Positions 25,018 through 40,808 are shown, counted from the first letter of the stretch. The stretch: DNA of 64,000 nucleotides from Gammaproteobacteria bacterium 42_54_T18 (GCA_002163245.1 MAAL01000177.1:1-64000), one strand, 5' to 3'. The notes: generated by a model not told the origin, from the letters alone. A program made the numbers and translations.

Positions 25018-25689
25018 TTATGGATAGCCATCAAAAAATGTATTAGTGGCACCACTTACCGCGGGATCCGTTTGCATTCTAACGACGGCATCCGTTGTCA
25101 CCCATATACCGGGCGTACCGAAGTCTGGATTTGCTTCTGCCTCTGGCAAAAACATGTCAGCCGCATTATCAACCTTAAAGAGCTCACGCATAAATGGCAC
25201 CTTAGTATCCACCTTATATGAAACTTCTATCTTCAAAATATTTGCTTCTTGAATGCTAACATTGTTCTTTCTGCTGGCATCACGATACAATAAATTATCA
25301 TTTGGGATACGACACAGACCGGAAGGACATGAATCTGCAGCCCTCCCCCAATCGGTGAATATTTGCCTATTTGGTCGCACAATCCTTATCAGCACTTTGC
25401 TACTTTCATCCACTGAATCCACTGGGTTCTCTGTGGGGTCAAAAGCTTTCATGCGCTCTCTAATTTCATTCCTAATCTTAACAAAGCTTGACGGGTCACT
25501 TAGATCAGACACTGCTGCGATTCTGGCCCCCATTAAAGCTGCATATTCAAGATTTGTTTTTGCCTGATAGATAAAACCGACATGAACTATAGCGAACCCT
25601 AAAAACATAACCACGGGAAACACAAACAGTGTTTCAATCATTGCAGCCCCACGATTATGCCCTTTACCTTTGAACCCGATCATATCCAC
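25018..25689 (-). CDS. TadE-like pseudopilin, last gene of the Tad locus
   Basis: A 223-residue protein with a short basic leader, then RGAAMIETLFVFPVVMFLGF, a TadE-type class with Glu at +5 after the Gly cleavage site, and a single hydrophobic helix (about 17-40). The remaining 180 residues are a periplasmic domain with a Cys pair (DSCPSGLC). The frame starts at GTG 25689, with ATG 25683 as an alternative. It lies 30 bp after the phosphatase gene and ends the predicted operon. Expected role: minor pseudopilin needed for Flp pilus biogenesis. Confidence 0.8.
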   Translation of the reverse strand: MDMIGFKGKGHNRGAAMIETLFVFPVVMFLGFAIVHVGFIYQAKTNLEYAALMGARIAAVSDLSDPSSFVKIRNEIRERMKAFDPTENPVDSVDESSKVLIRIVRPNRQIFTDWGRAADSCPSGLCRIPNDNLLYRDASRKNNVSIQEANILKIEVSYKVDTKVPFMRELFKVDNAADMFLPEAEANPDFGTPGIWVTTDAVVRMQTDPAVSGATNTFFDGYP

Positions 25690-25719
25690 ACCATATTTTT
25701 ATTATTGGTAAAGGCTATA

Positions 25720-26388
25720 TTAACCAAAGGCCAAAACAACTGTTTTATCATCTTCACAACCGCGCTCTATACTTTGTGAAATCAACCGCTTTGCCTTATC
25801 AGCCATTGAAACCTTTTGCTGGCTTATTGTTTCTTGTATTTCGTTATCCGTCAAAGGATCACTAATACCGTCAGACATTAACAACAACACATCAGCATCA
25901 TTCCAATCCCATGTGGTTAATTCTGCATCCACGCCTGCTTTTACGCCCATTGCCCGAGTGACAACCATCTTTTCCTTCGATCGCCTTACAACCTTGGTGG
26001 TATGATCTGTTGTTAGCTGCAGCAATGCTCCTCCACGTAGACGATAAATTCTGCTATCCCCAACATTAAAGCAATACAGCTTCTCGCCCTTTTTCCACGC
26101 CATGACCAACGTACTGGCCATACCTTTCAACCCTTGTTTTTCGGCCTTTTCATAAACAGCGGCATTAGCCGTACCTACAGCTTTGTGCAAAAAGGCCTCG
26201 TCTGCAATTTGCCCCTCTACCAGACTTTCATAGAGTGAATTAACAACGGTTCGAGAAGCCTCATGACCAGAAGGTCCCCCACCAACACCGTCAGCAACTA
26301 TAAAAACGCCTAAGCTTGGCAACGCCAAACAGGCATCTTCATTATATTCTGAACGCGTACCTTTCTGACTTAAGGAAACAGCCTTCAT
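25720..26388 (-). CDS. PP2C-type protein serine/threonine phosphatase
   Basis: A 222-residue stand-alone PP2C domain. The metal-binding and catalytic motifs are all present: SEYNEDA (about 13-19), VADGVGGGPSGHEAS (about 32-46), VGDSRIYRL (about 107-115), MSDGISDPLTDNEI (about 171-184) and EDDKTVV near the C-terminus. There is no membrane segment, so it is cytoplasmic. Its ATG overlaps the stop of the TadD-like gene (TAATG). In a locus with two FHA domains and a divergent kinase it is the expected reverse enzyme of a phosphothreonine switch, as PppA is in type VI secretion. Confidence 0.88.
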   Translation of the reverse strand: MKAVSLSQKGTRSEYNEDACLALPSLGVFIVADGVGGGPSGHEASRTVVNSLYESLVEGQIADEAFLHKAVGTANAAVYEKAEKQGLKGMASTLVMAWKKGEKLYCFNVGDSRIYRLRGGALLQLTTDHTTKVVRRSKEKMVVTRAMGVKAGVDAELTTWDWNDADVLLLMSDGISDPLTDNEIQETISQQKVSMADKAKRLISQSIERGCEDDKTVVLAFG

Positions 26389-26933
26389 TACCTATGCTCC
26401 AATGCCTGCCACATTTGATCCAGCTTTAATTCTTTTCGCGACTGCTCATTGGTTGCAAAAGCATTAATGTCGGACAAAATATCAGTGATCTTAGAAAGAT
26501 CCTGGGACGCACTAGCGGTTGCCACATACAACTGAAAATGCCGCTCTGCTTTCATCAACTCGATAACGGCTATATTGTAATGTGACTTTGCGTGTCGAGG
26601 ATTAAGCGTAATCACTCGCCGAAAATACCCAATAGCGCTATCAAGCTTTTCTCTACGAAAGCTGATGTTACCTAAGCGATATAATGCAGAAACATTATCA
26701 GCATCTAGATCCAGAATATCCCTAAAGTACTCCCTTGCCATTGTAAGCTGCCCATTGACATACAGCTTTTCACCAACGCTCGCCAGGCTCTCGACCTGTT
26801 CCATATTGGCTAATTCTAACTTGATATCGCTATTTCTATCTCCGAAGGTAGCACAACCATTTAGGATCACAGCAATAGACACCAACATAATCTTTATAAA
26901 ACCAACGTTCAAATTACCCACCCCAACGCTCAT
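26388..26933 (-). CDS. tadD: TPR lipoprotein, TadD-like
   Basis: A 181-residue protein with a lipoprotein leader (IMLVSIAVILNGC, lipidated Cys about residue 27) and about three tetratricopeptide repeats (LYVNGQLTMAREYFRDIL, ADNVSALYRLGNISFRREK, PRHAKSHYNIAVIELMKAE). TadD proteins are TPR lipoproteins needed for secretin assembly in Tad systems. The gene overlaps the FHA gene by 20 bp and the PP2C gene by 1 bp, so all three are translationally linked. The assignment to tadD is by fold and position. Confidence 0.75.
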   Translation of the reverse strand: MSVGVGNLNVGFIKIMLVSIAVILNGCATFGDRNSDIKLELANMEQVESLASVGEKLYVNGQLTMAREYFRDILDLDADNVSALYRLGNISFRREKLDSAIGYFRRVITLNPRHAKSHYNIAVIELMKAERHFQLYVATASASQDLSKITDILSDINAFATNEQSRKELKLDQMWQALEHR

Positions 26934-28353
26934 ACCAAGCTAACTTCGAACTGGCCTTGGTGTAGTACTCTGTACCCGGCGGCACAAGTGAGACTACTTC
27001 CTGCCACAAAGCTTTTGCCTTTGCTGAATTTACATACTCTAAACGAAGCGCTTTACGATAAAGTTGCTTCGATTTGTTGCGAACACTATCTAGTGCAATT
27101 TTTGCAGCAACACTATCACCTAACTTCACGGCTTTTTGCCACATCTTATAGGCTTTGTGAGACTCCCCTGATTGCGAAAGCTGATTCCCTCTTGACACAT
27201 ATTCGTCTACCACACGAGTAACGACCTGATCAGCATAAAGACTACGTTTGCTCTTAAAAGCCTTGACCTCTTGTTCTAAAAAGCGAGTCCAATATTGAAA
27301 TGCACTGTCCTTGTTTCCTGACACGTAAGCTTTTTGACCTTTACTATAATCTCCAAAAAGTTTCGCCAGTGATTCGTGTTTGCTTTTCAATTTATAACGT
27401 AGTGCTTGAGGTAATCGCGAATCACTTTCATACTTTTTGAAATCAGCAAACAAAGCGTCCGCATCACCATCAAGATAGCGCGCATTTGCATTCGCCAACA
27501 TTTTTTTCACAACCGCTACATTTTTTGACTGCCTAGGTTTGGCAGGTTGTTTGGGCTTAGAAATCACAGCCTTAGGTTTAGGAGTAGGCGCTTTAACCAA
27601 CGCAATACTAGGTGGTGGCGACTGAGGTGTCGGTGTAACCGTTTCTTGTTGAACCACGGGGCTAGCCTTTGGAACAACTACCTTCGAGGGAGCAGCAACT
27701 GGAGGCTGTGATTGATTACCATCCGTCGCCAGCGAAACTGTACCTGGGCTTGACATCGTCATATTTGCTGCTTTATAGCCACCAAATGCCACTATAGCTA
27801 CACCAACAAAAATAACGGAATATTTAGCCATTTTCTTAGGTACAGAAGCTGTGGGGCCAAATGGATCAGCTGAGCCCACAACGGGAGATGCTGTCGGTTT
27901 TGCAATCGGCTCAGATGAAGGGTCCACAGAAAAGGTTAAACTGACCTCACCTAACTTAACTACGTCACCTTCTTCTAGAATTACTCTAGAAACTTTATAA
28001 CCATTGACTTTCATGCCATTCAGGCTATCAAGGTCGTTAACGACAAACCTTCCCGACTGAAAAACAATTTCTATATGTTTACGCGATAAACCTTTGCCGT
28101 TAAGCACCATATCGCATTCCGCACCACGCCCAAGAACAAAGGGAAATGCAGTAATGGGGTAAGTCTCTCCGTCGGAGTCCGTAAGTGAAGCAGCGGCCTC
28201 ATCTTCATCGGTTTCCATGTAAACTTCAGTTTTATCATTATCCCAGTTTTGCGCTGGATCGTTAGCGCTAGCGGTCTCACCTTCGAGTCCATGTTTTCTT
28301 ATATCAATAACTGGGGTTGCTTCTGCAGCAAAATCATCTGCGCCTTGTTTCAT
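26914..28353 (-). CDS. FHA-domain membrane protein with C-terminal TPR-like region
   Basis: A 479-residue protein. An N-terminal FHA domain (about 70-145) keeps the phosphothreonine-binding residues in LGRGAECDMVL, GLSRKHIEI and DSLNGMKVNG. A single transmembrane helix follows (about 172-195), then a Pro/Lys/Val-rich linker (about 200-290), then a helical domain (about 290-479) resembling TPR/Sel1-type repeats. The topology puts FHA in the cytoplasm and the repeats in the periplasm. It is likely the receiver of the nearby kinase signal, coupling it to the envelope part of the pilus machine. It overlaps the TadD-like gene. Confidence 0.82.
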   Translation of the reverse strand: MKQGADDFAAEATPVIDIRKHGLEGETASANDPAQNWDNDKTEVYMETDEDEAAASLTDSDGETYPITAFPFVLGRGAECDMVLNGKGLSRKHIEIVFQSGRFVVNDLDSLNGMKVNGYKVSRVILEEGDVVKLGEVSLTFSVDPSSEPIAKPTASPVVGSADPFGPTASVPKKMAKYSVIFVGVAIVAFGGYKAANMTMSSPGTVSLATDGNQSQPPVAAPSKVVVPKASPVVQQETVTPTPQSPPPSIALVKAPTPKPKAVISKPKQPAKPRQSKNVAVVKKMLANANARYLDGDADALFADFKKYESDSRLPQALRYKLKSKHESLAKLFGDYSKGQKAYVSGNKDSAFQYWTRFLEQEVKAFKSKRSLYADQVVTRVVDEYVSRGNQLSQSGESHKAYKMWQKAVKLGDSVAAKIALDSVRNKSKQLYRKALRLEYVNSAKAKALWQEVVSLVPPGTEYYTKASSKLAWYERWGG

Positions 28354-28419
28354 GGTATTGCATCCCGCGCCCTAATAGTTTAAGGGTGACCTTATTTGTT
28401 TTTATGAGTAGTCTGTTAT

Positions 28420-28746
28420 TCAACCAAATTCAAGTGTATCTTCCAAGCTAATTCCTGTGCGTTTTACGTTACCGGCGCTTAACTCCAGTACAGAACAAGT
28501 TCCCTTAGGTGCGAACGATAACCGAAAAGGCCTCATTTCCACCTCCACTTTAAGAACTTTCTTATGATGATCGAGGTAAACAACGTCTATGGGAAACCGC
28601 ATTCCAATTGTGTGAATACTGCCACCCGGGCAAAAATACATTGCCTCATTATCACCCAAAGAACGATGAGCAAGCAAGCCCACCAGTCGCTTGAGCCAAG
28701 TATCCGCGAATTGAACCTGCACTTCGCTTAACTTGTTAATCGTCAT
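28420..28746 (-). CDS. DUF192 protein
   Basis: A 108-residue protein matching DUF192: WLKRLVGLLAHRSL, then MYFCPGGSIHTIGMRFPIDVVYLD, then ELSAGNVKRTGI. Family members are often exported, but this one has no signal peptide. Its function is unknown. It overlaps tadC by 4 bp (ATGA), so it is a firm member of the operon. DUF192 genes recur in Tad loci as far as I know, but no role is established. Confidence 0.82.
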   Translation of the reverse strand: MTINKLSEVQVQFADTWLKRLVGLLAHRSLGDNEAMYFCPGGSIHTIGMRFPIDVVYLDHHKKVLKVEVEMRPFRLSFAPKGTCSVLELSAGNVKRTGISLEDTLEFG

Positions 28747-29699
28747 GAAGCAAGCAATTTCAATAAGGAGGCAGGAATCATGTCTATTTCTGCCAATTTA
28801 ACAATCATTACAAACCCAAGTAGCATGAATATAATCGGAAATAGAAAAGCCATCATTGGTATCAGCATCTTTACTGGTGCTTTGTTGGCTGTTTCCTCAG
28901 CGTTATTAAATCGCTCCGTCCTCTTCTGCTCTGCCTGGGCGGTTAACACATCAACAATTTCTCCCCCGGTTTCTTCAGCCTGGTTCACCGCAGCAACAAA
29001 ATTATGTACCGAATCTATATTCATACGCTCAGCCAGATCTAGCAACGAATCTCGACGCACTTTACCTGCACGAATTTCACGCAAAAGCTTTGCAAATTCT
29101 TCTTTCACCGGGCCTTTAGGTAGACTTGCAATCGCCTGACCTAATGATGTTGAATAGTTCAACCCTGCACGCATAGATAGCACCAACAGATCTAATAAAA
29201 AGGGGAATTCCTTAGCAACAATAGCTCGCCTTGTTCCAATGCGATCGGATAGCCAAAGGTCTGGATAAAAATAACCTGCGGGTATAACAGAAAAAAGAAA
29301 AATGAGCGCTTCCGGCCCCAACGACTGGTCAATATTGTAAACAGCTAATACCGATACAATAGCCGTTACCGTACAAACAATTTTCAAGGTGACGAATTCA
29401 TGAGGCATTATCGCGTAATTCATTCCTGCCGCGCTAAGCCGACTAGAAATTCGTTTGTAATAGCTATCTTTCATTAACGAACGCACATCAAGTGCAAAGA
29501 GGCTAATTATCGGCTTCAGCAACTTGAAAATTAATGGCGGAGGGTCGCGCCAATCTTCCGGTTCAGAAGGGCGGGTGCGCACCACCAGCTTTATTAGCGC
29601 ATAAGTACCTAACGTAACGGTGATCGCAACGAACAGCCCAGGCAAGTACCCCACCCACCCACCAGATTTTCCCCACGCTAGAAACTGATCAAATATCAA
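28743..29699 (-). CDS. tadC: Tad inner-membrane platform protein TadC
   Basis: A 318-residue T2SSF-family protein. The N-terminal helix (about 15-37) is followed by a cytoplasmic segment, two close helices (about 105-150), the T2SSF domain with FPFLLDLLVLSMRAGL and FVAAVNQAEETGGEIVDVL, and a last helix (about 275-305, MAFLFPIIFMLLGFVMIV). Together with TadB it forms the platform on which TadA drives pilus assembly. It overlaps tadB by 11 bp and the DUF192 gene by 4 bp. Confidence 0.9.
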   Translation of the reverse strand: MIFDQFLAWGKSGGWVGYLPGLFVAITVTLGTYALIKLVVRTRPSEPEDWRDPPPLIFKLLKPIISLFALDVRSLMKDSYYKRISSRLSAAGMNYAIMPHEFVTLKIVCTVTAIVSVLAVYNIDQSLGPEALIFLFSVIPAGYFYPDLWLSDRIGTRRAIVAKEFPFLLDLLVLSMRAGLNYSTSLGQAIASLPKGPVKEEFAKLLREIRAGKVRRDSLLDLAERMNIDSVHNFVAAVNQAEETGGEIVDVLTAQAEQKRTERFNNAEETANKAPVKMLIPMMAFLFPIIFMLLGFVMIVKLAEIDMIPASLLKLLAS

Positions 29700-30576
29700 C
29701 AGTAACCACCTTTTTAATTAATAACGCGCCAATCAGCGCCATGGCTCCCATTATGCCAAGCCAAATCCAGCCCAATTGTGAGGTGAAAAGTAACCGCATG
29801 GCTTCTGGTTCAAGTTTATAGAACACATAGCCCATAAAAACAGGAAAGAACGTTGCTAGATTACCCTGGGCTTTACCCATTGATGTAAGCGCTCTAATTT
29901 TCCCTTCAACTTTTGCTTTTTCTCTCAATGTCTTTGATAAAATCTCGAGTGTTTCTGCTAGATTCCCCCCTACCGCCCTGGAAATTTTTATCGCTGAATT
30001 CATCAAAATAACTTCAGAGCGACCAATTCTTTCTGCCAAATCATCTAGAGAGTCATTGAGGTCGTGCCCTACTCGGTTTTCCACCATCACTTGCGCAAAC
30101 TCCTGAGCAATAGGCTGCGGTTGATTCTTTACAACTTGTTGAAGCGACTTAACTAGGTTCATACCAGATTTCATTGAAGATGCCATAGCAGATAACGTAT
30201 CAGGGAGCTGTGCAACAAACTTGTTAGAACGCTTTTCTTTCATGACCGTTAGGATAAACGGAGGGGCAAACAGCACAATGGCGACAAAAACCAGCGCCAC
30301 CACTAAATTGGTAACCAGAAATAGTAATGGCCCTAAAAATACAGCGACGACCATTGTAATAGTAAATACTTGCGAAGGCTCAATAAGCGCAACGACGTCT
30401 CTAAGACCTTTGTCGACTTGCGTATAAAAACTCTTTTTATAAACCTTAAATATTTCTCTGCCAACACTATTTAGAATAAAAAAGGCGCAGACGCAAAACA
30501 CTGACGCGAGCATCAGTATTAGAGGTAATGAGTTTTCTTCAATAAACTGCTGAATTTGGGTTAAATCTAATTCCAT
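29689..30576 (-). CDS. tadB: Tad inner-membrane platform protein TadB
   Basis: A 295-residue T2SSF-family protein. Helix near 15-35, two helices near 75-110, then the T2SSF domain with LPDTLSAMASSMKSGMNLVKSL and SAIKISRAVGGNLAETLEIL, and a C-terminal helix (about 265-290). It pairs with TadC. Its ATG overlaps the end of tadA by 10 bp. Confidence 0.9.
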   Translation of the reverse strand: MELDLTQIQQFIEENSLPLILMLASVFCVCAFFILNSVGREIFKVYKKSFYTQVDKGLRDVVALIEPSQVFTITMVVAVFLGPLLFLVTNLVVALVFVAIVLFAPPFILTVMKEKRSNKFVAQLPDTLSAMASSMKSGMNLVKSLQQVVKNQPQPIAQEFAQVMVENRVGHDLNDSLDDLAERIGRSEVILMNSAIKISRAVGGNLAETLEILSKTLREKAKVEGKIRALTSMGKAQGNLATFFPVFMGYVFYKLEPEAMRLLFTSQLGWIWLGIMGAMALIGALLIKKVVTVDI

Positions 30577-32234
30577 GCTTTCTCTAACCCCTCGATATTA
30601 AACTCAGTTTCAGCAAAAATCGACGTATCTAACTTAACACCTTGAGAAATTGCGTCACGATAAAACCGCGGAATATACCCAGTAGCAACATATTGACCAA
30701 TGATTTTTCCGTTTTCATCGTTGCCTTGCTTCTTGAATTCAAATATTGGCTTTAAAGTGATGGTATCACCTTCTATACCAGAAACCTCCATAATATGGGT
30801 GATCTTTCGTGTTCCATCTGCAAGGCGACTCTGCTGTACGATTATTTCTATGGCTGAGGTTATCTGCTCCCGAATAGCCTTGGAGGGCAACTCAACCCCT
30901 GCCATCATTACCATTACTTCCAATCTCGATAGGAAATCGTAAGGAGCGTTAGCATGACCCGTTGTTAACGACCCATCATGCCCAGTATTCATTGCCTGAA
31001 GCATATCCAATGCCTCGCCGCCACGACACTCACCAATAACGATCCTATCAGGGCGCATCCGCAATGAGTTGATAACCAAATCCCTAATAGCAATACGCCC
31101 TTTTCCTTCTGCGTTTGCAGGGCGACTCTCCAAGGAAACAACATGAGGCTGATTTAATCGAAGTTCTGCTGCATCTTCAATAGTGACAATTCGTTCATTT
31201 GAACCAATGAAATTAGAAAGAATATTCAGCAATGTCGTTTTTCCCGAACCTGTACCTCCAGAAATAACAACATTTTGATGCTGTTCTACCGAAGTTTTCA
31301 AAAAAAATGCCATCTCCCTGCTAATTGACTCATATTTAAGTAAGTCTTTCATATACAGGTTCTTTTTAGAAAATTTCCGAATAGTAATCGTAGGACCATT
31401 TAATGCCAATGGAGGGATCACAGCGTTAACTCGGGATCCGTCCGCAAGCCTGGCATCTACCATCGGTGAACTTTCATCAATACGGCGCCCCAAAGGCGAC
31501 ACAATTCGGTCAATAACTGCCAATAACGATTGAACACTAGTAAATCTGTTTTTTGCGAGTATGAGCTTGCCATTTTTTTCAACATAAATCTGATCGGGAC
31601 CATTAACCATCACTTCTGTGACATCTTCATCATCAAGTAGTGGCTCAAGGGCCCCCAGCCCAATCGCTTCAGCAACAACCTGGCGCTGCAATTCTTCTTT
31701 TGTAATATCGGATGGTATTTTGTCAACTCGTTCGGCAATAATATCTCGAGTAGCTTTCTCAGCCTCTTCTCGCAGCTCCTCGGCACTCATTTCTTGCAAG
31801 TTGCCACGCTTTCGTAAATCAAGATACTCCAAAATCATCGAATGAATTCGACGCTTAAGCGCAATGGTTTCCTCGCCCTGCTGCACTACATCAGACTTAA
31901 CGTTACGCCGATCATCACCGAAAAAACCATCGTCATCCTGCACCGGCATATCAGTAATACGAAGTTCAAGCTCACCAAACATAACCACATTATCAACTGC
32001 AAGGTTAAGTGGCTCATCTACCCGTTTACCATTAAACCAACAGCCATTTGTACTATTTTTATCTATCAATACGGCAGTGTGCTGAGCAACAACCAGTTCA
32101 GCGTGCACTCGGGATACGTGGCTATCATTCAATATTACTTCGCATTGGTCTCCCTTACCTAACTTGTACCTGCCTTCAGCGAAGCGATAGTGCGTTTTAT
32201 TCTGGTGAACATCAATTACATCAAATTCCAACAT
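30567..32234 (-). CDS. tadA: Tad secretion ATPase TadA/CpaF with N-terminal FHA domain
   Basis: A 555-residue protein. Residues about 1-95 are an FHA domain (LGKGDQCEVIL, SHVSRVHAEL, KNSTNGCWFNGKRV). Residues about 130-550 are a CpaF-type ATPase with Walker A SGGTGSGKTTLL, the Asp/Glu-box and Walker B region IVTIEDAAEL and IVIGECRGGEAL, and the His-box GHDGSLTTGHANAP. It energises Flp pilus extension, and in some systems retraction. Most CpaF proteins have no FHA domain, so phosphopeptide recognition is built into the motor here. The partner phosphoprotein is not known. Confidence 0.93.
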   Translation of the reverse strand: MLEFDVIDVHQNKTHYRFAEGRYKLGKGDQCEVILNDSHVSRVHAELVVAQHTAVLIDKNSTNGCWFNGKRVDEPLNLAVDNVVMFGELELRITDMPVQDDDGFFGDDRRNVKSDVVQQGEETIALKRRIHSMILEYLDLRKRGNLQEMSAEELREEAEKATRDIIAERVDKIPSDITKEELQRQVVAEAIGLGALEPLLDDEDVTEVMVNGPDQIYVEKNGKLILAKNRFTSVQSLLAVIDRIVSPLGRRIDESSPMVDARLADGSRVNAVIPPLALNGPTITIRKFSKKNLYMKDLLKYESISREMAFFLKTSVEQHQNVVISGGTGSGKTTLLNILSNFIGSNERIVTIEDAAELRLNQPHVVSLESRPANAEGKGRIAIRDLVINSLRMRPDRIVIGECRGGEALDMLQAMNTGHDGSLTTGHANAPYDFLSRLEVMVMMAGVELPSKAIREQITSAIEIIVQQSRLADGTRKITHIMEVSGIEGDTITLKPIFEFKKQGNDENGKIIGQYVATGYIPRFYRDAISQGVKLDTSIFAETEFNIEGLEKAWN

Positions 32235-32257
32235 TTCAACAGTACTCGCCCGGTAAA

Positions 32258-33517
32258 CTAATCAAAAATGTTCCAATTCTTAGCATCATCCTTTGCTGTT
32301 TTGCTCAGATCACGGCCGTATTGCATTAGGTCATTGTTCATTTTACCTTCAGGGTCAACTAAATGAGGCGTTACAAAAACAACCAATTCAGTGGTTTTTT
32401 CTTGAAAATCCCTAGATTTAAATAATTCACCAATAATAGGTATGTTGCCAAGACCCGGCATTTTTTCAACCGCCTTTGAGTCTTCAGAGTGCAAAATACC
32501 CGATATAACCATGGTCTGACCGGACATAACATTCATTTCCATTTTTGTGCGGCGAGTAGAAAACCCGGGGATACCCAGCACCTGAATACTTTCGTCAACA
32601 GCACTTACTTCAATTTCTACCTTTGTCGAAATAAACCCATCAGGGTCTGCGATAGGCAGCATATTTAGGATCACACCCACTTGTTTGAAAGTAACAACGA
32701 TTGTTCCATCTTGCTCTACAGGCAATGGAACCTCACTACCCGCCAAAAACTCTGCCTTAGACCCACTTCTGGTGACCAACTTAGGCTGCGCCAACACTCT
32801 CGCAACACCTTTGCTTTCTAGCAAATTAATTTTTGAGCCAAAATCAGAAGACAACGTAAACCCTGTATTTGGGCCACCAAGGTGTAAGCTAGGCCCTCCA
32901 TCGTCTCCAGTAGTAATAGAATTCCACTGGACGCCAATGTTACGTAAATCTTGCCGTCTTACCTCTACCACCTGTACATCAAGCATTACCATAGCTTGCA
33001 AACTAACGGCTGGCTTCACTACATTAAAAACAACAGAACCCTTTTTTACTTCTTTTTCAAGCTTCTTCTTCATATCGTCAATAATATTTACGTCTTGCTG
33101 CCTGAGTATTCGCCCCTCAATAAACACAATGCCGTTCTCCTCTCGGGCATTCACTCCTTCCACGTCAGCTAAGACTATATTTGCTATCTCCAGCACCTGA
33201 ACCCATGAATTATCCACTACTCGAAGCAAAAAACGTTTCTGTTTGCCCACAGCGGTCCACACCCGAAGGTCTGTAACCCCGGCTTTTAACCCTGTTAATA
33301 ATATTTCATCAGGCCCTGTCGCTTGTGCATTGGCGATGTCAGGATGACCAATAGAAACTCGAGTAACGTTTGGATACGGTAGGAGCGTTGTCTGGCCTTC
33401 AACAATAGTTACAGTATCAGCGTAACCTTCGGCCGCATTTAGAGCTTGTAGACTGATTAAATTAGCAACGAGAACAAAAAAAACTCTCACCCAAAAACGG
33501 GTTAAACGTAATGGCAT
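32258..33517 (-). CDS. rcpA: Tad outer-membrane secretin RcpA/CpaC
   Basis: A 419-residue protein with a signal peptide (cleavage about residue 28, SLQALNAAEG), a pilus-formation N-domain (about 35-105), a BON-like segment (about 110-165) and the secretin core (about 175-400). The core has SGSKAEFLAGSEVPLPV, VISGILHSED and the signature EKMPGLGNIPIIGELFKS. It forms the outer-membrane pore for the pilus. AAGGAAG precedes ATG 33517. It lies between rcpC and tadA as usual. Confidence 0.92.
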   Translation of the reverse strand: MPLRLTRFWVRVFFVLVANLISLQALNAAEGYADTVTIVEGQTTLLPYPNVTRVSIGHPDIANAQATGPDEILLTGLKAGVTDLRVWTAVGKQKRFLLRVVDNSWVQVLEIANIVLADVEGVNAREENGIVFIEGRILRQQDVNIIDDMKKKLEKEVKKGSVVFNVVKPAVSLQAMVMLDVQVVEVRRQDLRNIGVQWNSITTGDDGGPSLHLGGPNTGFTLSSDFGSKINLLESKGVARVLAQPKLVTRSGSKAEFLAGSEVPLPVEQDGTIVVTFKQVGVILNMLPIADPDGFISTKVEIEVSAVDESIQVLGIPGFSTRRTKMEMNVMSGQTMVISGILHSEDSKAVEKMPGLGNIPIIGELFKSRDFQEKTTELVVFVTPHLVDPEGKMNNDLMQYGRDLSKTAKDDAKNWNIFD

Positions 33518-33583
33518 AAAGCAATTCTTCCTTATCTTTTTCTTTTTATATCGTTATTTTTATAATAGATAAACAATGTCTGA

Positions 33584-34384
33584 CTAAGAGCGTGTACCGC
33601 CTTTAATTAACTCAAACCCCCAACCAGTATGGCGCTGAGGTGCAGGCGCTACATCTTGTGGAATATCGATCAAGTTGTCAATTGTAACATAATCCTCATA
33701 GCTTGACTCCTCGTCCTCTGGTTTGCGCAACAATACAGAGATATCACCGACACTTTGACCGTGTATTAAACGTGTAGCATCAGCAGGAGAAACACCAATA
33801 GTAATTTCGGAATAAGATGAGTCTTCAGAAGCAATACCATCATCAATATCCCCGCCCGTTGCCAACACGCGAACATCCTCAATAAGAGGCACCGTTCTAT
33901 CTCGCTCACCATCTTGCAACGTGATATACAAATCAATCCAATCTCCTGGCTTTAAAAAACCAGAAAATGTATCAGCAGAATCGACTGGCAAGGTAATAGC
34001 TCTTTGTCCATTTTTCAACAAACTCGCCAGGCCATCAACCTTCACTGAATTAACGTGAACGTTAAGGATAGTTTCACCTTCTTTTATCGGATGCAATATC
34101 TGGCGCCCCTCTACCGCTCCAAAGCGACCTGGCAAGATAGCATCTTTGTGGACATAAGCTTTTGGTACCTGGCGAATCGATGCTGTCGAAGCGCTCAGCA
34201 CATCACCAACACTCAAGTTACGATTGGCAACCACCACCGATATTGCCTCCCTTTCTTCATCAAAATTAGACTTATAATCAGAGACCTGGGTATCTATATA
34301 GTTTTGGGTTAAGTACCAGCTTGCACCGCCAGTTAATAACGCACCTAACATGAGCAAAATTGTTAATTTATTATTGGATTTCAT
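33584..34384 (-). CDS. cpaB: Flp pilus assembly protein CpaB/RcpC
   Basis: A 266-residue protein with an N-terminal membrane helix (LTILLMLGALLTGGASWYL, about 7-25), a SAF domain (about 47-110, VVVANRNLSVGDVLSASTA) and a C-terminal RcpC/CpaB domain with GDWIDLYITLQDG and IEDVRVLA. It acts in the periplasm with the secretin. Start ATG 34384. Confidence 0.9.
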   Translation of the reverse strand: MKSNNKLTILLMLGALLTGGASWYLTQNYIDTQVSDYKSNFDEEREAISVVVANRNLSVGDVLSASTASIRQVPKAYVHKDAILPGRFGAVEGRQILHPIKEGETILNVHVNSVKVDGLASLLKNGQRAITLPVDSADTFSGFLKPGDWIDLYITLQDGERDRTVPLIEDVRVLATGGDIDDGIASEDSSYSEITIGVSPADATRLIHGQSVGDISVLLRKPEDEESSYEDYVTIDNLIDIPQDVAPAPQRHTGWGFELIKGGTRS

Positions 34385-34411
34385 AGGTGGTACCGTACGT
34401 TATAATTAGAA

Positions 34412-34693
34412 TTATGGTTTATAAATAGCACTTGCAAATGTCTCTTGTTTATTATGTATCGCCTGCACCAAACCCGGAGCCTCTAAACCCGCCGTATCAT
34501 GAAACTCATCATAATAAGTGCCAGTCCCTGGTGTTAACTCAGTATCAGCCCAACCACCCTTTTTTGTCTTTGGGTCTGTAGTGCCACCAACAATGGCATA
34601 CCAAACAAGTATTACCAAGAACATGGTCGCAATAAGATACTCGGTCATGACCTGACCACGTAACCTGCTTGTTTTTGGTAAAGGCGTGATCAT
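34412..34693 (-). CDS. Small Flp/TadE-type pseudopilin
   Basis: A 93-residue protein. The processing motif is RGQVMTEYLIA, matching the Flp/TadE rule of Gly before the cleavage point and Glu-Tyr at +5/+6, followed by a hydrophobic helix (about 18-35). A short periplasmic tail of 55 residues follows. It is larger than a typical Flp pilin and lacks its second half, so a minor pilin role is more likely than the main subunit. Confidence 0.72.
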   Translation of the reverse strand: MITPLPKTSRLRGQVMTEYLIATMFLVILVWYAIVGGTTDPKTKKGGWADTELTPGTGTYYDEFHDTAGLEAPGLVQAIHNKQETFASAIYKP

Positions 34694-34701
34694 ATTAAAA
34701 C

Positions 34702-35415
34702 CTACTTAATGTGATGAACAATTAGATGTGACCCTTTTCGCGCCCCAGGAAGCCGCTTGCAAGTCACCTGCATCAAACTAGAACCCTTTTTATAATGCCT
34801 AATACTCAGGTTTCTGGACGGTGTTCGCTGAAAAACCAACAACCAATCCTTTCTTGTTAACTGATTCTCATAGTAACGACTGTTAAAATCAACGCCTTTC
34901 GTGCTTTCGAATGTAACGGTTTCCGCTCGCCTGTTACCATCCAAACTATCAATTCGACTAAGAAGCTTACTTGACGGCGGCTGGGGCACTGTTACTTTGT
35001 AACGACGTTTCGTCCGAGTTTGCACCTCAGTAACAACCAGCTTACCTTTAACCAGGCCTCCAACTTGAGAATATTGAACTGAAGCATAAAATCCATCTAG
35101 CTCATGACCAATAATCCTATACTTGCCCAGATCCTTTGCCCTATATTGCCCATGCCCCTTACTTTTCCAAAGGGAAATATAAAACCTTTCTAACTCAGAT
35201 TCTGTACCTCGATACTCAAACGTTTTTATCGACATTGGCACACCGTTAAGTGCCATATCCTGCCCTACCCACGTCCAACTTGCCCCAGGGATGACAGGTA
35301 AGTTAGGAAGCTGAACTTGCAATGGGTCTCTTGCCTTACCCTGAACATTAATGGAATAAATGCATGTCAACACTAGGAGGAGAAAACAAGAAATTCGTGC
35401 GAATACAGGAAACAA
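34702..35415 (-). CDS. Secreted protein of unknown function in the Tad locus
   Basis: A 237-residue protein starting at TTG 35415, 5 bp after the preceding stop codon, so reinitiation is likely. It has a hydrophobic N-terminal segment (ARISCFLLLVLTCIYSINVQG, a signal peptide or anchor) and a mixed alpha/beta body with no motif I recognise; VTFESTKGVDFNSRYYENQLTRKDW is split here as VTFESTKG and SRYYENQLTRKDW. It is surrounded on both sides by pilin-like genes, so a periplasmic role in pilus biogenesis is a reasonable inference. Confidence 0.6.
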   Translation of the reverse strand: MFPVFARISCFLLLVLTCIYSINVQGKARDPLQVQLPNLPVIPGASWTWVGQDMALNGVPMSIKTFEYRGTESELERFYISLWKSKGHGQYRAKDLGKYRIIGHELDGFYASVQYSQVGGLVKGKLVVTEVQTRTKRRYKVTVPQPPSSKLLSRIDSLDGNRRAETVTFESTKGVDFNSRYYENQLTRKDWLLVFQRTPSRNLSIRHYKKGSSLMQVTCKRLPGARKGSHLIVHHIK

Positions 35416-35420
35416 ATCAG

Positions 35421-36260
35421 TTACTCAACAAAATCACCAAGGTCAGAAGGCAATAGCTCTGACTGTTTACCAGATACAACACCAAGACCGCCTGTACCGC
35501 GACCTAGCTCCATTTCTTTAAAATTAAGCGAGTTATTAATGATGCTGCTGCCGAAGCCTAGAGGGTTTTCAAACACACCCAATGTATTACCACCTCGAGA
35601 TAACTGGACTATAGCCTCAGTAAAGCTATCTTCATCTTCTGGCACCCATCCGTCAGTTATCATCGGTGCACTAGCCTCAATGTGAAAACGAGACTGCCCT
35701 GCAATTTCATCGTAAGGGGCAGCCTGATTTTGATAATTATTCTCCCGAAAATTCACCACATCTACAATTTTTAGCAAGGAATTATCGGCATCGATAGGGA
35801 TAGAGATTGATGGCGCCATTAAACTATCCGCATTTAACCCTGCTCGGCGACCAATTGAGGTTGAGTGGACACCTATAAAGTTGGCCGTTGGGCTACCCAC
35901 TCTTTCACTTTTAAACGCCACCCCTAGGCTTTTATCGACTAAGGACGGCAGATTGTTTACCGTTCTCTCCCCTCCTGTTGCGAAGTCAGACCATTTTTTT
36001 GAATCGATATCTAACAACAGATCATCAATATTTTCTTTGATGCGATCATTTATTTCTGATGAGCTTAAGCCTTGATTGGTGCTATATACTGTTTGCTCCC
36101 ACGCATAAAAACGAGACGCCTTTGTCGCTGTTGTATTGACATCAAGTAAATTAGCAAAGGAGGCTACCAACAACAACAACGGGACAAGCACTGCTGCTAC
36201 AGCAATGAACTCTGAAACCGCCTGCCCTTTGGAATGGCTATTTGTACTATAAAGTCTCAT
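35421..36260 (-). CDS. TadE-like pseudopilin
   Basis: A 279-residue protein. Its leader KGQAVSEFIAVAAVLVPLLL fits the TadE rule (Gly, then Glu-Phe at +5/+6), followed by one hydrophobic helix (about 13-37). The remaining 240 residues are a periplasmic domain rich in Asn and Ser. GGTGAGAG lies directly before ATG 36260. It lies between the TadG-like gene and a protein of unknown function. Confidence 0.72.
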   Translation of the reverse strand: MRLYSTNSHSKGQAVSEFIAVAAVLVPLLLLVASFANLLDVNTTATKASRFYAWEQTVYSTNQGLSSSEINDRIKENIDDLLLDIDSKKWSDFATGGERTVNNLPSLVDKSLGVAFKSERVGSPTANFIGVHSTSIGRRAGLNADSLMAPSISIPIDADNSLLKIVDVVNFRENNYQNQAAPYDEIAGQSRFHIEASAPMITDGWVPEDEDSFTEAIVQLSRGGNTLGVFENPLGFGSSIINNSLNFKEMELGRGTGGLGVVSGKQSELLPSDLGDFVE

Positions 36261-36271
36261 CTCTCACCCGC

Positions 36272-37795
36272 CTAATTCACTAGTTTTGCTGTCCAAAACG
36301 GATTAAACAGATTTGGTTTTTCTGTATTAACATGAGTTAGATCGTAACCTTTACAACCAGCTCCTTCACAGCCAGGCCTTTGATAAAGCACAACAGCCTG
36401 AGAAATTGCAGTTAAACCCTGCGCATCACAATTGGATCCATAGCGTGCCTGGTCATCATTCCAGCCACTCAGCGCCTGCTTTGTATCATTATCACGACCA
36501 AGCAAATCATTACAGTTACCCTTCTGACTTAGCACTGCAGTCACCTTGGCTTCTGACCACGCAGGATTAATCATAGAATAACTTTGAATTCCTTTGTATT
36601 CCCCATTCTTAATGGCATCACAATCAAGGCCGTCTTTACACATACCTAGCGTATTCATCAAAAACGATACCGCTCCCCCAACAATACCACCCACGGGGTT
36701 TGAAGCAAAAAACTGACCAATTTTCACGGCGTCACTACTACCTTTACCGTCAACACCTATAATAAAATCCCCACCTTTAATGGTGTCATCACCAGGAACC
36801 CACTCTCCCGCAGCATTATATGATCCGGAGGACCAATTATAACGTTTATTACTACTATCCCAAGATGCAGCTGTGGCGCCTTTTTTGGAAACATCAACAC
36901 CCAATAACCACTCATAATCCTTATTTCTATCAGTAATCCATGCCGATGAAGGTGCCGTTTCTGCAGAGCGATTTAATAACGTAACCAATTCACCGCTATC
37001 CGCAACCGGATTGTCTCTACTACCCTTAGGTTTAGCATTACCGCTGCTTTTACAATAGGCATTAATAGCCTTGCCTTTGTTTTCTTTCTCACTCGCGTTG
37101 TCGGCCGAATCTCCTGGCGCCGCAAACATCACCAAAGAACAAAAATCATTATTTTCAAGAGCATGCTTAGCTTTACTTTTCGCAGCATCACTACTGTTAG
37201 ACGCCAATTCATTTAGCTCCGCTTCATCATTGACCAATATGCTAACACTATCATTTTTCACATATCGCTGGGCAACTTGGCCCATGGCGTGCTCAATAAT
37301 GGAGGACTTTCCTCCAGTTCCGGTTAAAATGTCATATTCATCTTTTTGAAAATCACTGTACATCGAATTCGTTGCATCAACAGTCAATATATATGCGCCA
37401 CCAACAACTTCCATGCCTTCACGCCAGTAATCCATAACACCTTTTAACTTAAGTGCGTCCAGGATAATATCTATCAACCCGCCACCTAACCCAGTTAAAC
37501 CGCTAGTCACTGTATCATGCGCCATATTGACTTCGGTTTGGAAGCTCACCATATGGCCAATTGCCACTTCATTGGCAATCATTGTTCGATTGGTATACGC
37601 CATGAAATTAAGCTGTCGAGCCGCTGTAAGAGCACCAGAATAAGCAGCAGCATCCGCAGCATTAACAAGCTGCATTTTTTCATTAACGGCGCGGTTGGAA
37701 TTAAAAATAAGGAAGAATACTGAGGCGGCTACGATAAAAAGCGCCATACCTGCGATTAAAACCTGCCCTTTTTGTTTTTTATTATAATTATACAC
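36272..37795 (-). CDS. TadG-like pilus assembly protein
   Basis: A 507-residue protein starting at GTG 37795. The leader KKQKGQVLIAGMALFIVAAS precedes one transmembrane helix and the typical TadG segment MQLVNAADAAAYSGALTAARQLN. It then has a long periplasmic domain with several cysteines (CKDGLDCDAIKNG, CNDLLGRD, RPGCEGAGCKG). It lacks the Glu at +5, unlike the TadE-like proteins nearby. No von Willebrand MIDAS motif was recognised, although TadG proteins often have one. Confidence 0.75.
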   Translation of the reverse strand: MYNYNKKQKGQVLIAGMALFIVAASVFFLIFNSNRAVNEKMQLVNAADAAAYSGALTAARQLNFMAYTNRTMIANEVAIGHMVSFQTEVNMAHDTVTSGLTGLGGGLIDIILDALKLKGVMDYWREGMEVVGGAYILTVDATNSMYSDFQKDEYDILTGTGGKSSIIEHAMGQVAQRYVKNDSVSILVNDEAELNELASNSSDAAKSKAKHALENNDFCSLVMFAAPGDSADNASEKENKGKAINAYCKSSGNAKPKGSRDNPVADSGELVTLLNRSAETAPSSAWITDRNKDYEWLLGVDVSKKGATAASWDSSNKRYNWSSGSYNAAGEWVPGDDTIKGGDFIIGVDGKGSSDAVKIGQFFASNPVGGIVGGAVSFLMNTLGMCKDGLDCDAIKNGEYKGIQSYSMINPAWSEAKVTAVLSQKGNCNDLLGRDNDTKQALSGWNDDQARYGSNCDAQGLTAISQAVVLYQRPGCEGAGCKGYDLTHVNTEKPNLFNPFWTAKLVN

Positions 37796-37842
37796 TTGAG
37801 GTCACCATAAACAGTTAGGTGAGAAATTTGGAACAAGCAAGA

Positions 37843-37860
37843 AGAGAGGTAAGGCTCTCT
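37843..37860 (-). terminator. Weak hairpin after the Flp pilin gene
   Basis: AGAGAG and CTCTCT arms around a 6-nt loop, followed on the minus strand by a T-rich stretch, 25 bp after the pilin stop. Partial termination here would make far more pilin mRNA than assembly mRNA, as is common in Tad loci. The short stem makes this tentative. Confidence 0.35.
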
Positions 37861-37884
37861 CCCCTCGCTTTATAACACTCAGTG

Positions 37885-38157
37885 TTATTGGATAGCTGCG
37901 TTACCACCAGTATAGTTATTCAAACTTTTTGCCGTATTAGCATCTGCAGCTGCAGCCGTTGCATCCGCTTGTGCATCCCCAGTAGAGCCACTACCTTCTT
38001 GGCCAGAAATCTCTAGCGCCATACCAGCAACCTGGTTACGCGCCGCGCCGCCAAACAAACCCATTACAGCAATACCAGCAACAGCAATCAATGCAACGAT
38101 GATTAGGTATTCTGACATGCCTTGACCGCGAACATTCTTACGTGTATTCATTTTCAT
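37885..38157 (-). CDS. flp: Flp-family major pilin
   Basis: A 90-residue prepilin. The processing site is VRGQGMSEYLIIVALIAVAG: cleavage after Gly, Glu-Tyr at +5/+6, then a hydrophobic helix (about 17-37). The C-terminal half is Ala/Thr/Asn-rich with low complexity. AAAAGGG precedes ATG 38157. As the first gene of the minus-strand locus it is the likely main subunit. The prepilin peptidase (TadV/CpaA) that should cut it is not in this window. Confidence 0.88.
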   Translation of the reverse strand: MKMNTRKNVRGQGMSEYLIIVALIAVAGIAVMGLFGGAARNQVAGMALEISGQEGSGSTGDAQADATAAAADANTAKSLNNYTGGNAAIQ

Positions 38158-38685
38158 TATTTAAGCCCTTTTAATTTTGTATTTTTTTAGTAGTTAACAT
38201 CGCTTTGAGGCAACATCTTTATTACAACAAGGTTTTTTATTGTTAGACGTTTGATTGTTCTGTCTTAAGTGCAGTTCATATCATTCGCCTGGCCGACTCC
38301 AACCTATCGGATCATTTTCATGCAGGTCGTCATCTGGTGGACATAGTTACATAAGGGGAAATTATGTCAACCCCTTGAAAGTAAAACATTCGTTCTATTT
38401 TTGAGCTATTTTTATTTATGAGAAACCGTTAACTAAATTCACTAGTTTCTTTAAAAAATAAATTCGCATTAAATCAGTAAGATACAGCTTGAAGCGTAAT
38501 GTTCATTGCATGCCGTTGACGGGTGTGTAGAATACGTCCATTGCTTGATTTAACAATACTTAACAGAAAGTTACCTGTTAATGCACATTTCGCTCTATTA
38601 TTGAGAGTGTGCTAATAATAACACTAAACAAATAAGCCTAGACGGATCTAACCACGACCGGGATTGATTGGGGACATAATTTACA
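38158..38685. other. Divergent regulatory region between flp and the kinase
   Basis: About 528 bp with no convincing gene (a frame at 38598-38834 on the minus strand overlaps the kinase start and looks non-coding). It must hold the minus-strand promoter of the Tad operon; no strong sigma70 match was found for it, though a TTGACA occurs at 38370-38365 with a poor -10. A better plus-strand promoter for the kinase is listed separately. Confidence 0.5.
38506..38533 (+). promoter_or_regulatory. Candidate promoter of the kinase gene
   Basis: TTGCAT (38506-38511), 16 bp, TAGAAT (38528-38533), placed about 150 bp before the kinase ATG. Moderate sigma70 similarity only. Confidence 0.35.
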
Positions 38686-39669
38686 ATGAAGCTATCCGAG
38701 CTTTTTAGGTGGCGTAAAAAGAAGCCAGCACAACCCAAGGCTGCGCCAAAACCAGCGCAAGCCTCTAGAGCAAAAGCCGCTGTTTCAAGAAAACCGGTTA
38801 AGTCCAACGCAGAACAAAGCCTACAAGCTATCAAACCTATTAATGTGAAACTTAATATCGGTCAGTACCGATTAGAGCCATTCACCGAAGGTGGCGTTTG
38901 CGTAGTGATGAAAGGCATTCCCAAAGAAGCAGGAAAACCCAAGCTTGCCGTAAAACTTGTTAGAGAACAGTGGCTTAATCATGCAGCTGTACGTCGACAA
39001 TTTTCTAACGAAAGCCAAATAGTTAAAGAGTTACACCACCCTTTTCTTCCCAAATACCTATCTCGCGGCCTGATTGATGGCAAAGCATATTACGCTTATG
39101 AATTTATTGAAGGAGTGCCTTTAATAAACCTTTCTCAAGAAAAGGACCGCTTTCCTCCTGAGCTGATCAAAGATATTGCTACCAATATTGTTAAGCAACT
39201 TTTAGAGCAGCTGGTGCATGTGCAAGAACGATTAAAACCTGTCGCGCATGGAGACATTAGCTCTGAGAACATATTAATTGACAGCAAACAACGCATCTAT
39301 TTGGTGGACTTTGGCTGCTCTCACTTCGTCAAGCAAGCCCACAAAGATAGCTACCAATGGCTCGCCAAACCCTCATTTATTTCTCCAGAGCAAGCAAAAG
39401 GAGAAATATGGGATCACCGCAGCGACCTCTATCAAGCAGGCATTTTATTTTATGAGCTAGTTAAGAATCGTCGCTGGAACGTTGGAAAGTCTAAACGTGA
39501 AAAGGTTTTGTTTGCAGCGTCAAAAGAGAAACCAAGCGATACATTTCTAGAAGACATTGTGGGAATAGAAATTTCTACCGTTGTTGCGAAACTGCTGGAC
39601 CCCAACCCTAGAACAAGACATCAAACAGCAAAAGAAGCCTTGGCCGACTTTGACGCTGTGACACAGTAA
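38686..39669 (+). CDS. Serine/threonine protein kinase divergent from the Tad locus
   Basis: A 327-residue cytoplasmic kinase. Residues 1-50 are a Lys/Pro/Ala-rich lead. The kinase domain (about 60-325) has a degenerate glycine loop (TEGGVCVVMKG), the ATP lysine in LAVKLV, Glu in FSNESQIVKEL, a catalytic loop HGDISSENILI (HGD in place of HRD), VDFGCS for the metal-binding DFG, and SPE in place of APE. The key catalytic residues are present, so activity is expected. No membrane helix or PASTA domain is seen. It diverges from the pilin gene of a locus encoding two FHA domains and PP2C, which makes those the likely partners. Confidence 0.88.
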   Translation: MKLSELFRWRKKKPAQPKAAPKPAQASRAKAAVSRKPVKSNAEQSLQAIKPINVKLNIGQYRLEPFTEGGVCVVMKGIPKEAGKPKLAVKLVREQWLNHAAVRRQFSNESQIVKELHHPFLPKYLSRGLIDGKAYYAYEFIEGVPLINLSQEKDRFPPELIKDIATNIVKQLLEQLVHVQERLKPVAHGDISSENILIDSKQRIYLVDFGCSHFVKQAHKDSYQWLAKPSFISPEQAKGEIWDHRSDLYQAGILFYELVKNRRWNVGKSKREKVLFAASKEKPSDTFLEDIVGIEISTVVAKLLDPNPRTRHQTAKEALADFDAVTQ

Positions 39670-39707: not shown

Positions 39708-40808
39708 TTACTCTATCCGAACACCTTTATCAAACCGACATGGCGATGTCTGACCGTCGGCCGTACAAGTCCCTCTTCCATGCAGCTGACTTTGGTTAAA
39801 GCTTCCAACGTACTTGCTACCATCCGGCCAGCTAAAGGTTCCACGCCCTTCTCTTGTATCCTCTATAAAATCGCCGATATAGCGCTCGCCTGAAGGCCAC
39901 TGCAACGAACCTTTTCCTGTACGTTTGCCGTGCTTAAACTCGCCATCATATACACGCCCATCTTGCCAATAATACTTGCCACGCCCCTGCATAATACCTG
40001 AGATAAATTTACCTTCGTAACGGTTCCCGTTTGGCCATTGCATTGTGCCATTGCCATTTGGAACATCGCTAGCAAACTCCCCGCTATACAATTCTCCTGT
40101 AGCCCACTTCATGGAGCCACGCCCAGCCTTCTGGTCTTCATCAAACTCGCCGTCATAAACACTGCCATCGAGATAGCTGGCCTTACCACTACCATGCTGA
40201 GCACCTTGCAAAAACTGCCCATCATAACTTTCACCATCAGGACTCAATAAACGCCCGCGACCTGTGCGCTCATCGTTAATAAATTGCCCGGTATATTTCC
40301 TTCCATCTGGCCACTGATAAGAACCTGTACCATTTTTCTTATCATTTCGAAACTCACCTACATATACACGCCCATCATTCCAGGTATAGGTACCATTCCC
40401 ATTCTTTTGACCATTAACAAATTGCCCCTTGTATACGCTACCACTCGGCCATTTATAGGTGCCATCGCCACCATATTGTCCATCAACCCACTGCCCCTCG
40501 TAGGTACGGCCAGCGTTATCTGTAAATACACCCGAGCCAGACATCACATCATTAATCCAGTCACCTTCATACCGATCACCATTAACCCAGATGTACACTC
40601 CAAAGCCTTGTTTCTTCCCTTGAATGATTTCCCCACTAAACCGTGCGCCATCATCCAGCACAACAAAATCCCTTTGGGGTTCCTGATGGCTTACATTTGC
40701 CGACGCCTTGTTGGGCTCTCCGATTGACGTGCCTGTTTCGTCACAGGCTGCAACCAGTAGCGATACCGAAATAACCATTGCTGTTCTTAACAAACTCAAA
40801 TTTCTCAC
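39708..40808 (-). CDS. MORN-repeat lipoprotein
   Basis: A 366-residue protein with a lipoprotein leader ending LLVAAC (lipidated Cys about residue 22) and about 12 MORN repeats of 23 residues from about residue 55 to 350 (pattern Y-x-G-x-x-x-x-G-x-G-x-x-x-W-x-x-G, for example YEGKFISGIMQGRGKYYW). It is convergent with the kinase gene with 38 bp between. The start is GTG 40808. MORN repeats form elongated beta structures; no enzymatic domain is attached. Function unknown; an envelope scaffold or peptidoglycan/phospholipid-binding role is possible. Confidence 0.85.
   Translation of the reverse strand: MRNLSLLRTAMVISVSLLVAACDETGTSIGEPNKASANVSHQEPQRDFVVLDDGARFSGEIIQGKKQGFGVYIWVNGDRYEGDWINDVMSGSGVFTDNAGRTYEGQWVDGQYGGDGTYKWPSGSVYKGQFVNGQKNGNGTYTWNDGRVYVGEFRNDKKNGTGSYQWPDGRKYTGQFINDERTGRGRLLSPDGESYDGQFLQGAQHGSGKASYLDGSVYDGEFDEDQKAGRGSMKWATGELYSGEFASDVPNGNGTMQWPNGNRYEGKFISGIMQGRGKYYWQDGRVYDGEFKHGKRTGKGSLQWPSGERYIGDFIEDTREGRGTFSWPDGSKYVGSFNQSQLHGRGTCTADGQTSPCRFDKGVRIE

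Follow-up and report, generated by a model that had tools for sequence, protein, structure and literature searches.

Does a Tad pilus carry a phosphothreonine switch of its own? The question is raised by a 64,000-nucleotide stretch of DNA from Gammaproteobacteria bacterium 42_54_T18 (GCA_002163245.1, MAAL01000177.1:1-64000; hereafter, the window), in which a first-pass annotation had recognized a kinase, a PP2C phosphatase, an FHA membrane protein and an FHA-ATPase within a Tad pilus locus. Pfam matches and motifs confirmed all four gene types at the positions given below, as well as the Tad identity of the locus, which encodes RcpA, RcpC/CpaB, TadB, TadC, a TadE-like and a TadG-like protein, and a weakly matching Flp pilin.

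Organization of the Tad locus

A complete Tad pilus operon, with genes for the PP2C, an FHA-TPR protein and FHA-TadA, lies at positions 25018-39669, and a Hanks-type kinase gene is divergently transcribed (Pfam). The presence of TadA, TadB, TadC, RcpA, RcpC and a Flp-type pilin (Pfam) assigns it to the Tad/Flp (type IVc) pili. Read on the minus strand (38157 to 25018), the genes encode the Flp-type major pilin (37885..38157; weak Flp_Fap match, below cut-off); a TadG-like protein of 507 aa (36272..37795; Tad, 24.5 bits, cut-off 22.3); a TadE/F-like pseudopilin (35421..36260; weak TadE match, below cut-off); x237, a 237-aa exported protein without a Pfam or NCBIfam match (34702..35415); x93, a small pilin-like protein without a Pfam match that is conserved in the family (34412..34693); RcpC/CpaB (33584..34384; RcpC, 76.9 bits); and the RcpA/CpaC secretin (32258..33517; Secretin, 138.7 bits, with an N-terminal T2SS-T3SS_pil_N match of 48.2 bits). 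There follow the FHA-TadA/CpaF motor ATPase (30567..32234; T2SSE, 203 bits, FHA, 53.6 bits), the platform proteins TadB (29689..30576) and TadC (28743..29699; both T2SSF), a DUF192 protein (28420..28746; Pfam), the FHA-TPR inner-membrane protein (26914..28353; FHA, 63.7 bits), a TadD-like TPR lipoprotein (26388..26933; TPR matches, lipobox LNGC), the 222-aa PP2C-type phosphatase (25720..26388; PP2C_2, 76.2 bits, cut-off 24) and a TadE-like pseudopilin (25018..25689; TadE, 37.4 bits), which takes the locus slightly past the boundary first drawn at 25720. The pilin and one pseudopilin, weak in their Pfam scores, are conserved in position across relatives, and x237 and the DUF192 protein occur in almost every FHA-TadA locus of either TadA clade described below. 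The TadZ/CpaE profile PF16968 had no match in this genome, but none in the control genomes either, so the result does not argue for the absence of TadZ.

Overlaps of 1-20 bp join the genes for the PP2C, the TPR lipoprotein and FHA-TPR, and also those for TadA, TadB and TadC; from this arrangement, each set is almost certainly co-transcribed. The kinase gene (38686..39669, plus strand; Pkinase, 86 bits, cut-off 31.7) is separated from the Flp pilin gene by a 528-bp gap, and the two face apart.

Three further minus-strand genes of the window were noted. A MORN-repeat protein with 11 repeats (39708-40808) adjoins the kinase in the window's family, G035 and NORP220, and may be either a member of the module or merely a stable neighbor. 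An RND pump of the AcrB family (40836-44210) shows an odd fusion to a ribosome modulation factor-like C-terminus (PF04957 at aa 1072-1113, E 1.8e-6, barely above cut-off). A large non-ribosomal peptide synthetase (52965-63977; 3670 aa) contains condensation, adenylation, carrier and thioesterase domains.

An apparently active kinase of a separate lineage

The kinase is a soluble protein of 327 aa in which neither a membrane helix nor a sensor domain was found. Its AF2 model (pLDDT 86.8) has PknB as its nearest fold, and its catalytic residues are VAIK Lys90, Glu109, HGD190, Asn195 and DFG208. The Lys, the HxD Asp, the Asn and the DFG Asp are invariant among 19 Tad kinase homologs, down to 26% identity, suggesting an apparently catalytically competent enzyme; with these residues intact, we rejected the possibility that the window protein is a pseudokinase. 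The description "divergent kinase" in the first-pass annotation therefore holds for its transcription away from the pilin, but not for a sequence divergence that would have led to inactivity. It belongs to the non-RD kinases, most homologs reading HGDISSEN, and its DFG is intact; its activation loop has no Thr, nor is a Thr conserved there among the homologs. In the kinase tree, the Tad kinases group in a single clade (100/100 support), apart from both T6SS-linked and generic kinases.

One ortholog departs from this pattern. In G030, whose genome has neither FHA-TadA nor FHA-TPR, the kinase (L147:2082-3041, minus strand) carries Tyr in place of the catalytic Asp (HGY), an apparent decay to a pseudokinase after the loss of its partners, seen in this single case.

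A module parallel to that of type VI secretion

Like the type VI secretion (T6SS) phosphorylation pathway (PpkA, PppA, Fha), with which the annotation had compared it, the locus encodes a Hanks kinase, a PP2C and an FHA protein with an envelope machine. Unlike that pathway, it serves another machine, has an FHA domain fused to the motor, and uses a kinase of a separate clade. On the Fha/TagH model TIGR03354 (cut-off 120.25), FHA-TPR and TadA scored 47.8 and 27.3 bits, both below the cut-off; as a positive control, the T6SS Fha proteins of the same genome, encoded in type VI loci on C17 and C99, scored 349 and 301 bits. No tss genes were found in the Tad locus (Pfam), those of this genome being on C17 and C99, and the Tad kinases fall outside the lineage of its own T6SS-linked kinase (tree, 100/100 clade). 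Model scores and kinase tree thus rule out direct membership in the T6SS threonine phosphorylation pathway, and since the genome has a separate T6SS FHA/kinase set, the Tad set is a parallel module: one that, judged by its sequences, would work like the T6SS pathway without being a member of it. In Agrobacterium, PpkA phosphorylates Thr14 in the N-terminal cytoplasmic tail of the inner-membrane protein TssL, which Fha then binds (PMC3953482); with its own kinase, two invariant threonines in a tail and two FHA domains, one of them on the motor, the pilus is probably phospho-switched much as T6SS is.

Kinase, FHA-TPR and the motor FHA domain

The motor has the FHA-linker-CpaF architecture of class III CpaF (Pfam FHA at aa 23-87, a linker, and T2SSE at aa 192-468), with an FHA domain spanning aa ~15-95 (~31950-32192, minus strand). 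We sampled TadA in the genus, order, class and phylum, and annotated the flanks of FHA-TadA loci using models derived from the proteins of the window. A TadA tree, built after removing the FHA columns, resolved two sister clades, "plus" (26 rows, support 99/97) and "minus" (30 rows, 95/96). Three plus-clade rows (L068, L104 and L112) come from truncated contigs in which the FHA-TPR region is not visible.

The FHA-TPR gene and the single kinase lineage co-occur in the plus clade and not in the other. The kinase was present in 20/20 FHA-TPR-positive loci with a visible kinase side (the window, L061-L067, L069, L095, L097-L101, G384, G256, G244, G348 and G285), and its lineage in 0/20 FHA-TPR-negative, minus-clade FHA-TadA loci for which the pilin-upstream side was fetched. 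The first-pass annotation had named a lack of co-conservation of kinase and phosphatase with FHA-type Tad loci as refuting its idea; the kinase passes this check, whereas the PP2C is only partly co-conserved, being absent from at least five kinase-positive loci. When whole genomes were searched with a kinase profile, those of the plus clade with broken contigs still held an ortholog, at 121-230 bits, against no more than 105 bits in other genomes; the exception was G131, a plus-clade genome 74% complete, with a generic kinase match only. Relatives found by a named-genome search comprised uncultured Pseudomonadales and Gammaproteobacteria, Ketobacter, and strain HdN1.

An HRD-type Hanks kinase was found near Flp in two minus-clade, FHA-TPR-negative loci (G437 and G534), and belongs to another lineage in the kinase tree. 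HRD-type Hanks kinases near Flp in two FHA-TPR-negative Tad loci (L150:8903-10279 and L155:4462-5973) have a C-terminal HVGPIA segment in common.

In G032, whose TadA is of the minus type, the kinase, FHA-TPR and TPR lipoprotein genes (L148:7839-11719) lie on a contig apart from the Tad locus and adjoin CmoB and a DUF2914 protein. Since this cluster persists without a plus-type TadA, it favors a role for the FHA domain of FHA-TPR itself.

The residues of the TadA FHA domain that would contact phosphothreonine (pThr) track the presence of the kinase in this two-clade comparison. The contact Ser and Asn are kept in 26/26 plus-clade proteins; of the minus-clade proteins, 30/30 have some other residue, of many kinds, in place of the Asn, and most have lost the Ser as well. 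Retention on one side and varied erosion on the other is the pattern expected from selection for pThr binding. The phylum sample added nine FHA-TadA proteins that resemble the minus type, with no kinase, no FHA-TPR and no Asn. We therefore rejected the proposition that all FHA-type Tad loci carry the switch: the 30 minus-clade and these 9 proteins are without Asn, kinase and FHA-TPR, and "FHA-type Tad", the annotation's label, is too broad because the majority of FHA-TadA proteins have neither kinase nor FHA-TPR nor an intact pThr site. Multiple independent origins of the association between FHA residues and kinase were sought on the TadA tree and likewise rejected: the plus and minus loci fall into just these two sister clades, so that a single evolutionary contrast lies behind the Ser/Asn-kinase correlation. 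In addition, the plus-clade domain, while retaining S, H and N, has Lys for the canonical phosphate-contacting Arg (Ser in L110), so that its affinity for pThr is uncertain.

Second, divergent FHA-TadA-like ATPases were encountered in G012 and G003 (L081:9358-12801 and L086:9013-10647). Neither has recognizable Tad neighbors, and a PP2C lies near that of L081.

Two conserved threonines in the tail of FHA-TPR

The AF2 model of FHA-TPR comprises an N-terminal tail (residues 1-51, pLDDT <50), an FHA domain (55-143; 27925..28191, minus strand), a TM helix (175-199) and further helices (279-477), predicting a disordered cytoplasmic tail, one membrane helix and a helical periplasmic repeat domain. 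The nearest structures to its FHA domain are GarA, OdhI and DgcB, the last with its own phosphorylated N-terminal peptide (6hc1). The pThr-contact residues GR, S, H and N are present (within GR, S, RxH and LNG). Those FHA-TPR proteins whose sequences were inspected keep the canonical GR; in TadA, the FHA domain has GK instead.

Across the 54-residue tails of 15 FHA-TPR proteins from the window's subclade (A), M1, F8, T13, P14, V15, W37, T42 and V44 are invariant, T13 and T42 being the only Ser/Thr that are so (15/15). Among 20 FHA-TPR proteins, with identities as low as 24%, T13-P14 remains nearly invariant (at least 90%). In the remote subclade (B), the TP motif recurs, a further Thr with hydrophobic residues after it is present in several members, and part of the subclade has T-x-hydrophobic-hydrophobic motifs related to the T42 site. 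A known class of FHA ligand is pT-x-x-hydrophobic, and both T13 (TPV-L/I) and T42 (TEV-Y/F) fit it. From this conservation we regard Thr13 (codon 28315..28317, minus strand; TPV-L/I motif) and Thr42 (codon 28228..28230, minus strand; TEV-Y/F/L/I motif) as candidate phosphosites and candidate substrates of the kinase.

The PP2C is a variable member

The PP2C retains its metal-site motifs (NEDA, DGVGG, SDGISD and EDD), but with 157.6 bits on the Stp1 equivalog model NF033484 (NCBIfam) it fell below the cut-off of 230. It is missing from the locus in L067, L102, L103, L106 and L109, all of the kinase clade, and the genomes concerned hold PP2Cs elsewhere. A strict four-gene unit was rejected, as several kinase-clade loci are without the PP2C.

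A proposed switch and its alternatives

We consider it fairly probable, from these sequence comparisons, that this Tad subtype has its own phosphothreonine switch, built of kinase, tail and FHA domain. The kinase would phosphorylate Thr13 and/or Thr42 in the tail of FHA-TPR; the FHA domain of TadA and/or that of FHA-TPR would dock on the phosphorylated tail; docking would tether or engage the motor at the base in the inner membrane, thereby gating pilus extension; and the PP2C, or a different phosphatase in loci that do not have it, would reset the switch. By analogy with type VI secretion, phosphorylation is more likely to be activating than inhibitory. As the kinase has no sensor domain, the signal may arrive via the periplasmic TPR domain of FHA-TPR. 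The more specific version, in which the motor is switched by direct docking of the TadA FHA domain onto the kinase-phosphorylated tail of a dedicated inner-membrane adaptor, we put forward tentatively. Among the points that count for a switch are G030, whose kinase lost its catalytic Asp where Tad locus and FHA-TPR are gone, and the proof of the same logic in PpkA-TssL-Thr14-Fha (PMC3953482) and in GarA (PMC5448819); counting against it are the Lys for Arg in the TadA FHA domain, the single contrast, the patchy PP2C and the detached cluster of G032.

An alternative is a self-switch like that of GarA or OdhI, in which the tail, phosphorylated by the kinase, would fold onto FHA-TPR's own FHA domain and thereby release or block a partner; the TadA FHA domain would then be a structural relic and the motor would be controlled indirectly. 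The Thr motifs are indeed placed in a disordered segment that directly precedes the FHA domain, as in GarA (PMC5448819) and DgcB (6hc1), the canonical GR is in FHA-TPR and the GK in TadA, and kinase and FHA-TPR persist in G032 without a plus-type TadA. The retention of Ser and Asn throughout the plus clade, and their erosion in its sister, would nevertheless be unexpected for a relic, and we judge this reading to be on the unlikely side. It is more improbable still that the FHA domains are phospho-independent assembly modules, with the kinase and PP2C acting on an unrelated or transcriptional target. Most FHA-TadA have lost their pThr residues yet keep the FHA fold, which does suggest a phospho-independent role in the sister clade, and the PP2C is patchy; however, the co-inheritance of kinase and FHA-TPR is strict, and pThr residues and tail threonines are kept only in the kinase clade. 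That the kinase and PP2C merely belong to another system beside the Tad locus seems to us scarcely credible, even though the kinase is on the opposite strand and its genome holds 13 kinase matches: the kinase keeps its position in many families and in two or more deep subclades, the PP2C gene sits within an operon of overlapping genes, and the T6SS kinase of the genome belongs to another lineage. For the kinase, a chance neighborhood is refuted by the locus survey.

The proposed switch has parallels in known systems. FHA-TadA itself is already published, both as class III CpaF (FHA-IDR-CpaF), whose N-terminal FHA on the Tad motor was reported as an unexplained architecture (PMC12019362), and in the Tad-like Kil system of Myxococcus xanthus, with its FHA-fused ATPase KilF, further FHA proteins and a suggested T6SS-like phospho-cascade (PMC8460266). 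Class III CpaF is here split into a clade whose FHA domain looks pThr-competent, with kinase and FHA-TPR, and an eroded clade with neither. Like Kil, the window locus has an FHA-fused ATPase and an additional FHA protein; however, the main text of the Kil report mentions neither kinase nor PP2C, and the window locus has both. Kil also has no TadG, and its secretin is short, with no N0; the window encodes the TadG-like protein and a secretin with T2SS-T3SS_pil_N. In GarA, the phosphosites are in a disordered N-terminal tail beside the FHA domain (PMC5448819), and FHA-TPR shares with GarA/OdhI and Bdellovibrio DgcB (PDB 6hc1) a Thr motif so placed; these are soluble metabolic or cyclic-di-GMP proteins, whereas FHA-TPR is membrane-anchored, has a periplasmic TPR domain and is encoded in a pilus operon. 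In ArnA-ArnB-ArnC of Sulfolobus, an FHA protein and kinase reportedly control the archaellum, a relative of type IV pili (PMC6509490, PMC12852372); this set acts on archaellum gene expression and is not built into a motor. Full-text literature searches, which covered papers outside subscription, found no description of a Tad locus with kinase and PP2C, and no paper on the kinase-tail-FHA module or its limitation to one TadA clade. The first-pass statement that no characterized Tad pilus is known to be so controlled is consistent with these searches as to kinase and PP2C, but FHA-TadA and the idea of a phospho-cascade had both been published (PMC12019362, PMC8460266).

If direct docking is true, Ser/Thr-kinase control would be built into a type IV filament motor, in a gammaproteobacterial clade. 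The clade split predicts which FHA-CpaF pili would be phospho-controlled (those of the kinase clade) and which would not. The module names a kinase, an adaptor and two threonines, and relatives with complete genomes include gamma proteobacterium HdN1, in which the full set is present. It bears on how bacteria may time the extension and retraction of Tad pili.
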